A stretch of DNA of 64,000 bases from Pseudoscardovia suis (GTDB lineage: Bacteria; Actinomycetota; Actinomycetes; Actinomycetales; Bifidobacteriaceae), in assembly GCF_002797875.1 (NCBI RefSeq), contig NZ_PGFC01000002.1:124001-188000 (forward strand), given 5' to 3'. The notes below the pieces were generated by a model. It searched no databases and was not told where the DNA came from. It saw only the letters and a program-made list of their open reading frames with translations. How positions within the stretch are numbered: position 1 is the stretch's first letter; each line of letters opens with the position of its first letter. The translations under genes and the position numbers were made by a program. Positions 47,052 to 52,425 of the stretch are shown here, one piece after another.

Positions 47052-50000
47052 ATGGGATGGATACGGTGGCCAGGTACGTCACGAGACAATCTGTCCGCAC
47101 AGGGCGAGGGGCGGATGTACGAAGAGCCCCAGTCAGAAGCAGGCCAAGCGCGACCGTATGCCACCACTCGCCATGGGAAGGCACCGAGTCACCGGCTGTT
47201 GTCCGTCATATGCCTTCTCGTTGTCGCCTGCATGGTTCTTCCGCTGACCAGCGCTGTGGATTCCCACCGCACTGCGACTGCCGCTGACTCCACTGCCGCC
47301 GGTTTGTGCGATCCTTCCACGACCGTGCATTACGGCGACGGTAGCTCCGACATCACCGCCGACGACACCGGCATAGCCACCTACGTGGGCGGCAACATGT
47401 ACATTGGCTCCCCCAAGAGCGGAGCCACGTGGAGCGCCGACGCCATCAACGGTTCGTACGCTGTGGAAGCCGAAGGCCAGACCGTGGTCAGGGGAGACCT
47501 GCTGGCGCGACCCATCAAGACGGGCTCGGATGGCAAATCCTTCTTCACCCTCGGCATGGTGGCGTTTGGTGCACAGTACCTTCCCGCTGCCGGCACCACC
47601 ATCCTTGCCGTGGGAGGAAAGGTAGGCAGCAATCCGGGAGCTATTTCCACCCTTGGCGGTGGCGACACCGACCACGCGCAGGCATGGAACGCCGGCGTCG
47701 GCATCAAGAGCAAGGCGACGAACACCTCCACGGAATACGGCTACAAGGCCTACATCGCGGGCAATAAATCCACCGTGTGGGGTGATGACACCACGCCGTC
47801 GGTGAGGGCATACACGAACACCGCGTCTAATGCCGTCACATGGAGCGGCACCACGGGGCTTGACAAGAGCGGCATCACAGGTGCGGCGAACTATCAGAAA
47901 ACCATCGCCAGCTTGTCTGAGAACCTTTCGTCTCTGACCTCCACCGGCGTCGTCACCACCGGTGTGGCACCCACCGGCTCGTACACGCGCTACAAGTACG
48001 ACAGTTCGCGATCCTATGGCATGACCTTCACCAACGATACCGTGAACTACACGGTAGGCTCCCAGACCTATTCGGGCATCAACAACGAGAAGGTGCTGTT
48101 TTTCGCCGGCGACGGCCACTCCAACAACCAGGTCTTCAACGTCACCGTCAGCCAGTTGAATTCCGACGGATACCGCGGACTTGATTTTGCGTTTTCCAAC
48201 ATTCCGGCCAATGCGAGTGTCATCATCAATGTTGTCAAGGACGATGGAAGCTCGCTGGAAAACACCGATACCGTGAGCTTCAACACGGGTTGGCGCTTCT
48301 GGTGGAACAATGACGAGATTTCCAATGGTTATGTGACCTCTGGGAAGCATGCCGTGGATTCGTCAATCAGCAATGCCTATGCGACCGCAGGCGAAAGCAT
48401 CATGTGGAATTTCGGCGACGCAGGATCGGTGACGATTGGCGGCGGCAAAGCATATGAAGGGTTGAAGGCTGCAGGCGGCCTCGACAACAACGCATCGCTT
48501 GATGATCCGGCAGCCGCCATGCTCGGATCCATCCTCATTCCCAGCGGATCCTTCGACGACCACGCGACGACGAATGGCCGCGTATGGGTGGGCGGCGACT
48601 TCATGATGAACAACCCCACGGGCAACGCCAATGGCGCGAGCACCGCGTCGGTCATCGACATGGATCAGGAGCGTCACAACCTTCCGTGGGGCATGAGCAG
48701 CAGCAGCTGCTCTGCAATCGGCTGGTGGAAGTACGGCAGCGATGTGAGCGGTGTCCCCGTAGGGGGTTCGTCATGGGGCGTGTTCGCTACAGAAGATGAT
48801 GCCAACAACGATACGAACGCCATCCTGTATGTTACTGACGATGCGAGCAATGATTGGGCATCGGCGAACGGCCGCCTCGAAGTGCACGGCCTGAACATCA
48901 ACGCCACCTATTACGTGCGGGAGGTGTCGCCGCCGGACGGCTATAAAAACAACGACAACGTTTACACTGTGAAAACAACGTCCGAATGGGCGGCAGACAG
49001 TAACAAATACGTCAACGGCGTCTACATGGTGCAGGGAGACACTGATTCAAAGGGAAACCCTGAGTGCGGCATCAATATCTATAACATATGTGACGCTCCC
49101 AGTTCCGTCTCGTGGAAGAAGGTCGCATCCGACGGCACCAAGCTGCTTCCCGGGTCGAAATGGTCATTGACGAATACCGGTACGAACGCCGAATACGAGG
49201 TCGATGACCTTGCTGACCCGGTCACGGGTCTGACATTCACGACTTCGACGGGCACAACCTTTCTTGGCTTGATGTCTGGCAACACCAATCAAACCAAGGT
49301 GACGGTGACATCGGACGGCGTCACGTCAGCCATCCGCTATGCCTCCACGGACCCTGACGTCGCCTCGATTAACTCCACGGGTCTCGTCACCGGGCATGCT
49401 GTGGGCAGCGCGCAGGTCATCGCCTATGCAGGAGACAAAACCGCCACCATTCAGGTGCGTGTGGTGTCATCAAGCTCCCCTACGTCTTCCGGGTCAGGCG
49501 ACTCCATCAGCATTCGTGGTGCGTCCGTCATGCAGCCCCACGAGCAGCAGAAGCTCATGCTGCGTCAAGGCGGGGTGGCATTGCCCAATCCGTCCGTGGC
49601 GACATGGACATCCAGTGATGCAACAGTGGCAACGGTAAACGGTGGCAATGTGACAACGGGCGATTGCACATCCGCCTCCGGCTGCCAGGTCACGATCACC
49701 GCGCAGTACCAGGGCTACACCGACACTTTTAACATAACGGTGGCCTCCTCCAACGTCGTGACGTGGAAGAACCCCATCACGATCTACTACTACACGCCGC
49801 GCCGTCTGTCGTGGAACGCCTACTACCTCCACTACGCCTTCGTGAAGAACGGCTCGGCGGTATTCGACAACAGCGACATCAAGATGGACTCGGCGTGCTC
49901 CAACTGGGTCAAGGCCACGGTGACGGACGCCGACGCGCTGCCCCTCGTCGTGACCTTCACCGACACGCCGTATCAGGCGGGCACTACGCAGACCAACGCG

Positions 50001-52160
50001 CATTGGGATTCCAACAACTCGAAGAACTACTACCTGGCCGCCGGCTACGACACCTATGTGTTCGACCAGGAATCGAACGGCACCAACCACACCGCCCCGT
50101 CCTGCTCCGTCACCTCGCTGAGCGTGACCGGCAGCAATGTGGCGGCAGACGGAACGATGACGATGCAGTCGGGAACCAAATCCCAGCTGAACGCCACCAT
50201 CACGCCGACCGGTGCGGCGAAAGTCACATGGACATCCGACAATACGACCGTCGCCACCGTCGATGGCACGGGCCTGGTCACGGCGCTTAAGGTCGGCACT
50301 GCCACGATCGCCGCGACGGCAGGCGGCCAGCAGACGCTGATCAACCTTACGGTTCGTCCCAACACCGACGGCGAGGTCATTGTGGAGGGCAACGACGAGA
50401 TGATCGTCGGCCGCACACAGACGCTCACCCCCCAGCTCGACGGCGAGAAAGCCGTCACAATCACCTCATGGGAGAGCTCGAACCCCGACGTCGCCACGGT
50501 GGACCAGACCGGCCGTGTAACCGCGGTCTCCACCGGCACCGCCACCATCACGGCCACCGGATACGCTACGGTAGCCGGACCCGACAGCGGGTCGAAAAAG
50601 GGTATGATCTCCCTGAAGGTCGTCACCACACCGCCGTACTGGAACGATACCGACGCTATCAGCGGCCAGTTCACGGTCAACGGCCTGCCGGACGGCTCCT
50701 ACACGCTGTGCGAGACGACGCCGCCGAGCGGATACGCGGCGAGCGGTACCTGCTACACCTTCACGCTGTCAGCAGGCAAAGTGACGACGACAACCATTCC
50801 GTCTACAGGCGTGACCAATAGCCAGACCAGTGTCACATGGACCAAGGTGGACGCCTCCGACACCAATACGAAACTCTCAGGCACCCAGTGGAAGATCACG
50901 GGAAGCGACGGAACATCCGTGTGGTGTGTTGCTGACGGCGGCACCGCCAAAACCACGTTCGCGGCGAATGTATGCAGCGGCACCGCTCTGGCCGACGCCA
51001 ACGGTTCCAATGACGGCGTCATCATCGTTCAGGGCCTGCCTGCTGGTTCGTATACGCTCAAGGAGGTTCAGGCACCCGCCAATTACAAACTGAGCACCGC
51101 TACATACAACATGGTGATTTCGGGCAACTCCACGGTGAAGAGCACTGTGGGCGGCGATTCCAACCTGCATATTGAGAATGACAAGGATTACGGCAAGGTT
51201 CTGTGGGTCAAACAGGACGAAACGACGCATGCGAGCATCACCGGTTCACAGTGGGACCTGCGCCGTTGTGACAGCGACGTGAACGATGTGTCCGAGGTCA
51301 GTGCCGACAAGTGCAAGACCTCTGTAAAATCTTACGAAGACACGACAGCGTTCACCTTCGAATATGATTCCCTGGTTCTTGGCACGTATTACCTGCTCAA
51401 AGAGACCAATGCCCCGTCCGGATACCTGCTGGGCAGCAAACCGTGGTATGCGGTCAAAGCCACGAGTGCGGCGACTCCCGCTACCATCACGCCGCTGTCC
51501 AAGGATTCCGCGGTGCAAGGGCAGGTCGGCGATCCGACGACCGACGGCACCTACCCGATTTACAACCGCAAGGCGGCAACGGCCACATGGAATAAGGTCG
51601 ACGGTACCGGCGCGGCATTGGAAGGCGCTGAATGGACGCTCACCCAGTACAAGGACACGGCGGATTCCACAAACCCATCCGCTGCGCTGCGCGTTTACAC
51701 AATCACGTACACCAAGCCATCGGGAACGGCCACACAAGGCAGCTACTCCATGACCTGCACGACCGGCACATCCAGCAGTCTGTGTGCAGAGAATGGGGGC
51801 AGTCTGTCCGTGACCGCGCCCACAGATAAGCCGGGCGTGACCGCGCTGTCGTATTTCATGGTCTCTGGCCTGCCGTGGGGCTATTACGTCCTCACCGAGA
51901 CGAAAGCGCCTTCCGGTCATTCCATCGATGGCACCATCCCCGGCCAAGCGGTTGGCGGTGACACGGCGAAATTTGCCATCGAATATGGCACGGTGACGAA
52001 CCAGAATTCCGTCACGGCGCTTCCTCTGACCGGAGGAACATGGACACCACGTCGCGTGTTGGTGCTCGGCGCGATTCTGTTCACGCTGTCGGGCGCGGCA
52101 TATGCCGTGGCGCGGCGCAGTGGATGGCGCAGTGGATGGCGCAAGTCCGGTCGTCGGTAA
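47052..52160 (+). CDS. LPXTG-anchored multidomain surface adhesin with CBM25/26-like module
   Basis: 1702 residues. A signal peptide (hydrophobic core about 49-68, cleavage near 78) leads to a large region (about 95-600) resembling a choice-of-anchor A domain. Bacterial Ig-like (Big_2) repeats with ATVD and GTATI patterns lie at about 750-900 and 1030-1190. Between them, residues about 903-1008 read as a starch-binding module (TIYYYTPRRLSWNAYYLHYAF, then AHWDSNNSKNYYLAAG). Five SpaA-type E-box motifs (for example KETNAPSGYL, TETKAPSGHS) mark isopeptide-linked domains, mostly in the last third. The C-terminus has LPLTGG near residue 1657, one helix and a basic tail. No sortase gene is in the window. 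Confidence 0.88.
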   Translation: MGWIRWPGTSRDNLSAQGEGRMYEEPQSEAGQARPYATTRHGKAPSHRLLSVICLLVVACMVLPLTSAVDSHRTATAADSTAAGLCDPSTTVHYGDGSSDITADDTGIATYVGGNMYIGSPKSGATWSADAINGSYAVEAEGQTVVRGDLLARPIKTGSDGKSFFTLGMVAFGAQYLPAAGTTILAVGGKVGSNPGAISTLGGGDTDHAQAWNAGVGIKSKATNTSTEYGYKAYIAGNKSTVWGDDTTPSVRAYTNTASNAVTWSGTTGLDKSGITGAANYQKTIASLSENLSSLTSTGVVTTGVAPTGSYTRYKYDSSRSYGMTFTNDTVNYTVGSQTYSGINNEKVLFFAGDGHSNNQVFNVTVSQLNSDGYRGLDFAFSNIPANASVIINVVKDDGSSLENTDTVSFNTGWRFWWNNDEISNGYVTSGKHAVDSSISNAYATAGESIMWNFGDAGSVTIGGGKAYEGLKAAGGLDNNASLDDPAAAMLGSILIPSGSFDDHATTNGRVWVGGDFMMNNPTGNANGASTASVIDMDQERHNLPWGMSSSSCSAIGWWKYGSDVSGVPVGGSSWGVFATEDDANNDTNAILYVTDDASNDWASANGRLEVHGLNINATYYVREVSPPDGYKNNDNVYTVKTTSEWAADSNKYVNGVYMVQGDTDSKGNPECGINIYNICDAPSSVSWKKVASDGTKLLPGSKWSLTNTGTNAEYEVDDLADPVTGLTFTTSTGTTFLGLMSGNTNQTKVTVTSDGVTSAIRYASTDPDVASINSTGLVTGHAVGSAQVIAYAGDKTATIQVRVVSSSSPTSSGSGDSISIRGASVMQPHEQQKLMLRQGGVALPNPSVATWTSSDATVATVNGGNVTTGDCTSASGCQVTITAQYQGYTDTFNITVASSNVVTWKNPITIYYYTPRRLSWNAYYLHYAFVKNGSAVFDNSDIKMDSACSNWVKATVTDADALPLVVTFTDTPYQAGTTQTNAHWDSNNSKNYYLAAGYDTYVFDQESNGTNHTAPSCSVTSLSVTGSNVAADGTMTMQSGTKSQLNATITPTGAAKVTWTSDNTTVATVDGTGLVTALKVGTATIAATAGGQQTLINLTVRPNTDGEVIVEGNDEMIVGRTQTLTPQLDGEKAVTITSWESSNPDVATVDQTGRVTAVSTGTATITATGYATVAGPDSGSKKGMISLKVVTTPPYWNDTDAISGQFTVNGLPDGSYTLCETTPPSGYAASGTCYTFTLSAGKVTTTTIPSTGVTNSQTSVTWTKVDASDTNTKLSGTQWKITGSDGTSVWCVADGGTAKTTFAANVCSGTALADANGSNDGVIIVQGLPAGSYTLKEVQAPANYKLSTATYNMVISGNSTVKSTVGGDSNLHIENDKDYGKVLWVKQDETTHASITGSQWDLRRCDSDVNDVSEVSADKCKTSVKSYEDTTAFTFEYDSLVLGTYYLLKETNAPSGYLLGSKPWYAVKATSAATPATITPLSKDSAVQGQVGDPTTDGTYPIYNRKAATATWNKVDGTGAALEGAEWTLTQYKDTADSTNPSAALRVYTITYTKPSGTATQGSYSMTCTTGTSSSLCAENGGSLSVTAPTDKPGVTALSYFMVSGLPWGYYVLTETKAPSGHSIDGTIPGQAVGGDTAKFAIEYGTVTNQNSVTALPLTGGTWTPRRVLVLGAILFTLSGAAYAVARRSGWRSGWRKSGRR

Positions 52161-52174
52161 TGTGTCGGTGAATG

Positions 52175-52212
52175 GGTGAATGTGTCGGCGATGTGTCGCT
52201 GGCACATTCACC
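52175..52212. repeat. Inverted repeat related to the plsC-flanking palindromes
   Basis: GGTGAATGTG (52175-52184) and CACATTCACC (52203-52212) form a 10-bp stem. The AATGTG to CACATT outline resembles the palindromes at 1259-1497. A 14-bp tandem direct repeat (GCAAGGCATGCTGA twice) follows at about 52228-52255. Confidence 0.5.
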
Positions 52213-52280
52213 GGCGCACCACGCGCGGGCAAGGCATGCTGAGCAAGGCATGCTGAGCCAAGGCGGCACGCTCAACAACG

Positions 52281-52323
52281 CATGAGGGCCATGCATCCCA
52301 TTGGAGGATGCATGGCCCTCATG
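52281..52323. terminator. Bidirectional terminator, surface protein / gdhA
   Basis: Perfect 18-bp arms (52281-52298 with 52306-52323), a 7-nt loop and a TTTT tail on the plus strand, between convergent genes. Confidence 0.88.
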
Positions 52324-52425
52324 TTTTATGCATTTGCGATGCACGGTCTGTGCGTGCACCGTTTTGCGTTATGTGTTTGCGCCCGCTGCCGCCATTCAAC
52401 ACAGTGGCAGCGGGCAACTACAGCG

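Follow-up and report, generated by a model that had tools for sequence, protein, structure and literature searches.

Background

Starch-gripping modules of the CBM25 type usually sit on amylases, and pili are usually discussed as host-adhesion devices. Surface-held proteins that bind starch but are non-catalytic are known from Ruminococcus bromii, namely Sas20, Sca5 and RBR_09240, some of them with sortase motifs (PMC9112005). The pilus locus described for bifidobacteria comprises a major pilin, one or two ancillary pilins and a pilus-specific sortase (PMC7822027), and fibrillar adhesins are organised as head, stalk and anchor (PMC9210967). With regard to the substrate, adherence of bifidobacteria to starch granules is known from cultures as well as from the mouse gut, and B. 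pseudolongum coats and colonises these granules in the mouse intestine (PMC5386278). The proteins that B. globosum 45 upregulates on starch include pilin-related ones, their function having been left open (PMC13271388, 2026).

Here we describe a surface protein encoded in a stretch of 64,000 nucleotides from Pseudoscardovia suis, referred to as the window. We propose, with a probability of about 0.66, that it is one of a family of ancillary subunits, probably situated at the tip, through which sortase-dependent pili would dock onto starch or glycogen, a CBM25 or CBM26 module gripping the alpha-1,4-glucan. The following sections establish what the module is and how it is predicted to fold, that it is conserved in one slot, that a catalytic domain is absent and that relatives have a pilus operon.

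A CBM25 module within an LPXTG-anchored protein

The gene and the domains of its product are as follows.

47052..52160, + strand: LPLTG-anchored adhesin or ancillary-pilin-like protein with CBM25 (open reading frame and translation; 1702 aa)
47187..47300, limits approximate, + strand: signal peptide region, HRLLSVICLLVVACMVLPLTSA hydrophobic core (translation)
47466..48461, + strand: N-terminal head, pAdhesive_15 (PF20597; excised segment 27.9 bits, cut-off 23.8)
48756..48980, + strand: SpaA/CnaB-like pilin stalk domain (PF17802, 29.4 bits)
49272..49436, + strand: Big_2 Ig-like domain 5' of the CBM25 module (PF02368, 41.7 bits)
49602..49706, + strand: second Big_2-like stretch, very weak, just ahead of the CBM25 (PF02368, 13.3 bits, below the cut-off of 22.8)
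49770..50075, + strand: CBM25 module, aa 907-1008 (PF03423; PDB relatives 2lab, 2laa and 2c3v; fold match; site residues)
50139..50330, + strand: Big_2 Ig-like domain 3' of the CBM25 module (PF02368, 55.5 bits)
50400..50558, + strand: further Big_2 Ig-like domain (PF02368, 49.8 bits)
50658..51935, + strand: SpaA/CnaB stalk repeats (PF17802; three excised segments, 37 to 77 bits)
52020..52034, + strand: LPLTG sorting motif, then a hydrophobic stretch and a basic tail (translation and motif scan)

The protein is secreted, carries an LPXTG-type anchor and has CnaB/SpaA domains, all of which are features of an ancillary pilin, and Pfam hmmscan found five SpaA and four Big_2 stretches in it. Pfam searches with the whole protein and with excised segments found no hydrolase family, and a motif scan found no GH13 motifs. 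The original prediction, which had seen here a sortase-anchored adhesin devoid of a hydrolase domain, is therefore borne out by the LPLTG anchor and by the lack of a catalytic family in Pfam. Its placement of a starch-binding-like module between Ig-like domains also agrees with the layout, with one clear and one very weak Big_2 upstream and two clear ones downstream, and the YYY, WNAYYLHY and WDSNNSKNYYLAAG runs on which it drew are found in the translation where they had been reported.

The N-terminal head was modelled with AlphaFold2 as rich in beta structure (pLDDT 77), and comparison of the model with the PDB using Foldseek gave no convincing match over the head part. Backbone and tip pilins did match the model, mostly over some 90-180 columns, and these matches were assigned to the SpaA/CnaB-like domain at 48756..48980.

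That residues 907-1008 form a CBM25 module is supported by profile, by sequence relatives in the PDB and by predicted fold. First, PF03423 (CBM_25) matched the excised region with 39.0 bits (E 1.1e-9, cut-off 27.3) and, in a second scan, with 39.4 bits, and a profile scan of the whole genome found CBM_25 at the same place with 38.1 bits; the CBM25/26-like identity that had been suggested from the aromatic runs was thus upheld, and the Pfam search places CBM_25, above cut-off, at aa 907-1008. Second, phmmer against the PDB retrieved 2lab and 2laa, two CBM25s of a Paenibacillus polymyxa beta/alpha-amylase, with E of 2e-5 to 5e-5. Third, a profile trained on 31 other Bifidobacteriaceae CBM25s, from which the 1702-aa protein was left out, gave the module 34.0 bits, whereas no shuffle out of 2000 exceeded 15.0. 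Fourth, an AlphaFold2 model of the module, built from an alignment of 41 modules (pLDDT 83, pTM 0.78), had CBM25/26 structures as its top nine Foldseek matches in the PDB, with TM-scores to target of 0.62-0.68, a fold test that is not fully independent because the alignment given to AlphaFold2 contained CBM25 sequences.

It could be argued that an aromatic-rich beta-sandwich between Ig domains resembles a CBM by chance, given that hmmscan of the whole 1702-aa protein against Pfam does not list CBM_25; a search against NCBIfam also returned nothing for the module. However, the margin over the Pfam cut-off, the phmmer match at E 2e-5, the shuffles (none of the 2000 above 15 bits), the uniformly CBM25/26 character of the nine best Foldseek matches, and orthologs that pass the CBM_25 cut-off even as whole proteins, make such a coincidence extremely improbable, and it was rejected. 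What the blindness of the whole-protein search to CBM_25 does imply is that routine automated annotation could overlook the module.

Binding-site residues

The maltotetraose site of BhCBM25 is formed by W34, W74, H26, D81 and N76 (PMC4625611). At these positions the module has H927 (H26), W985 (W74), S987 (N76) and N992 (D81), the serine and the asparagine being the residues also found in the Paenibacillus CBM25 2lab. The position of W34 is taken by V937, with F938 adjacent and a longer loop preceding it, although the exact assignment is alignment-dependent. Among the adhesin modules of the family, W34 is retained in 32 of 39 and W74 in 33 of 39, in an alignment in which some rows are near-duplicates, and the Aeriscardovia orthologs (L048 and L050) retain the complete aromatic platform, including both tryptophans. 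The module of B. thermophilum (L106) likewise has the two tryptophans.

The module would bind starch or glycogen, and in this copy binding may be weak. Since CBM25 modules on their own have low affinity for granular starch, with a Kd of about 30 uM for BhCBM25 (PMC3398936), adhesion would need many copies, which fits multivalent display on a surface. An alternative is that the CBM25 fold has been kept in this lineage and useful starch binding lost, the module serving as a stalk domain or having drifted towards a different glycan, for example host mucin or an exopolysaccharide. Of the 39 modules only a few lack the W34 tryptophan, both Pseudoscardovia copies being among them, the valine and the longer loop ahead of it point the same way, and certain homologous modules are very diverged. 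Nevertheless, as in the Paenibacillus CBM25, the WDSNN-KNY loop is preserved and the residues equivalent to H26 and W74 are in place, a phenylalanine adjoins the lost tryptophan, and the whole platform persists in Aeriscardovia. We thus regard loss of binding as unlikely, and retain alpha-glucan binding as the preferred reading.

The adhesin gene is a mosaic when compared with that of P. radai (L044; window 47301-50700). Codons 84 to 1215, approximately, have 90-100% DNA identity, both ends of the gene have roughly 50-80%, and the flanking genes 79-91%. This looks like a recent between-species exchange of the head-plus-CBM segment, and because the region has recombined, dN/dS of the two Pseudoscardovia copies is uninformative.

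Conservation of the module across Bifidobacteriaceae

Homologs were retrieved across Bifidobacteriaceae with the N-terminal part of the 1702-aa protein. All 46 have an LPXTG-like motif and none has GH13 motifs. A CBM25/26-like module scoring above 10 bits was found in 35 of the 46, at about aa 800-1130, a count that leans towards detection because some of these proteins went into the profile. Overall, about two thirds of the homologs appear to have a module of CBM25/26 type at this position. Independent Pfam support was obtained for 32 of the 41 modules in the alignment, enzymes included, and the Aeriscardovia orthologs match CBM_25 above cut-off as whole proteins. Two homologs outside the matches above 10 bits, from B. 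pseudolongum subsp. globosum 2093B (L120) and B. criceti (L125), have instead a CBM26 above the Pfam cut-off. The modules of some homologs are strongly diverged, at 11-28 bits, and so not all of them need bind starch.

In a module tree, which is based on a short alignment and has many weak forks, the adhesin modules fall mostly in lineages of their own, namely, a group of 23, a Pseudoscardovia-Aeriscardovia group, and a group nested among amylase modules. Because of these separate lineages, recent random capture from an amylase was discarded as a general account of the adhesin modules. The starred branches of the tree require at least two changes between adhesin and enzyme labels, which suggests that modules were exchanged more than once.

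Several relatives depart from the single-module layout. Two or three tandem CBM25-like modules occur in B. pongonis (L100, aa 896-1344) and B. erythrocebi (L111, aa 845-1178), the first ones nesting among amylase modules on the tree. In Collinsella (L149, L154, L157 and L179), homologs of the adhesin head are followed by a pilin and a sortase, and no CBM module was detected. No CBM module was detected either in a second adhesin of P. radai (L129 3695-10487), of 2264 aa and with many SpaA-like repeats. The adhesin genes of B. boum, B. amazonense and B. pseudolongum subsp. globosum LMG 11569 are apparently split or broken, at the following positions.

L182 8811-11820: apparently split or broken adhesin gene
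L186 8694-13037: apparently split or broken adhesin gene
L183 8646-11004: apparently split or broken adhesin gene

Runs of 9-10 G lie near the start of the adhesin at L140 8566, L161 8827, L163 8878, L165 8812, L171 8748, L177 8864 and L179 8849, and are suggestive of phase variation in several relatives. A search of the gene at 47052-52160 for a homopolymer tract of the phase-variation kind found none, and it has no homopolymer of 7 or more.

Pilus operon context

The gene order of the family is adhesin, major pilin and sortase. A sortase lies downstream at 44 of 48 loci, drawn almost entirely from named genomes, most of which also have a pilin-like open reading frame between, and the exceptions include short contigs. 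In P. radai, the genes after the ortholog encode a pilin-backbone protein with an LPKTG anchor and a sortase of class C (254.5 bits, cut-off 160). By gene order and domain content, the homologs are assigned to an ancillary subunit of sortase-dependent pili, probably the one at the tip. At the locus in the window the corresponding place is empty.

52161..52425, no strand: gap of 265 bp to a convergent glutamate dehydrogenase gene; P. radai has here the major pilin, the class C sortase and a third open reading frame

No pilin or sortase genes were found beside the adhesin at 47052-52160. With its operon partners missing from the window, this copy is classed as an orphan relative rather than as a working pilus subunit, and wide conservation of the operon makes loss of the partners in this lineage the simpler reading.

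The absence of neighbouring genes for pilin and sortase, with a convergent housekeeping gene only 265 bp away, would be expected of a lone adhesin, anchored singly to the wall in this species and part of no pilus. On the other hand, the genome encodes six sortases and, elsewhere, a paralogous pilin placed between two of them (C2:55.7-60.6 kb), which could process the protein, and nearly all relatives are pilus operons. We give the singly anchored protein an even chance, and it is compatible with starch docking in any case. Outside the window, the same genome has a second pilus cluster (C2:50663-60584), in which a homolog of the head, 932 aa long, is accompanied by one pilin and two sortases.

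Starch context and proposed mechanism

In the same genome, CBM26 is matched ten times above cut-off and CBM25 once more, this second CBM25 being on an open reading frame with GH13 motifs, and so the genome looks well equipped for starch. Enzymes with CBM25 were found in 32 of the 41 genomes with the adhesin and in 24 of the 148 without it (Fisher p 2e-13, not corrected for phylogeny).

In the proposed mechanism, which includes alpha-glucan binding, the position at the tip and adhesion to starch as the steps that we infer, a beta-rich adhesive head at the N-terminus would be borne by a stalk of Ig-like and CnaB-type domains. Placed among the Ig-like domains, the CBM25 or CBM26 module would be exposed on a pilus, or on the wall itself, and would grip alpha-1,4-glucan chains. 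The cell would thereby be held on starch granules or glycogen, and separate secreted amylases would digest the substrate. For the copy in the window, with its operon partners gone and one site tryptophan replaced, the protein is probably a wall-anchored adhesin of reduced or altered affinity. These same two losses place our confidence that this copy docks starch from a pilus below that for the family, and we consider it somewhat less likely than not. The original prediction had overlooked the pilus ancillary-subunit family, the family-wide conservation of the module and the loss of one platform tryptophan.

A starch-binding module conserved in pilus adhesins would be a concrete link between adhesion to starch granules and starch-induced pilins, and its conservation in relatives suggests that their pili dock cells onto dietary starch. 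It is tempting to extend this to many sortase-dependent pili of animal-gut bifidobacteria and their relatives, as food-docking organelles whose ancillary-subunit CBM25/26 attaches cells to starch granules, a tentative proposal that we place slightly short of an even bet. If true, the adhesin by which bifidobacteria adhere to granular starch would be identified, pilin induction by starch would be explained, and some pili would be recast as tools for holding food.

Comparison with known systems

The module belongs in one family with BhCBM25 of the G-6 amylase of Bacillus halodurans (2C3V/W/X) and the P. polymyxa modules 2LAA and 2LAB, as judged from its profile match, its predicted fold and most of its site residues, the WDSNN-KNY loop of 2LAB being nearly identical to its own. 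However, the Bacillus and Paenibacillus CBM25s sit on hydrolases, whereas here the carrier is a non-catalytic surface protein and the W34 tryptophan is replaced. With the sortase-dependent pili of Bifidobacterium, the family shares gene order, LPXTG motif and SpaA/CnaB domains, from which the copy in the window differs by having no pilin and sortase neighbours. Fibrillar adhesins with pAdhesive_15 have in common with this protein a head, here above cut-off when excised, a stalk of Ig-like and CnaB domains and a wall anchor; the difference is the polysaccharide-binding module added to the stalk.

The starch binders of R. bromii are, like this protein, non-catalytic and held at the cell surface, but they rely on CBM26-like and X25 modules and are mostly dockerin or scaffoldin proteins, not a CBM25 in a pilus ancillary subunit. 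Full-text searches of open-access literature found no report of a CBM25/26 or starch module in a sortase-pilus subunit. Thus, non-catalytic starch binders at the surface, in R. bromii, and sortase pili, in bifidobacteria, were already known, and what appears to be new is a CBM25/26 within a pilus ancillary subunit.
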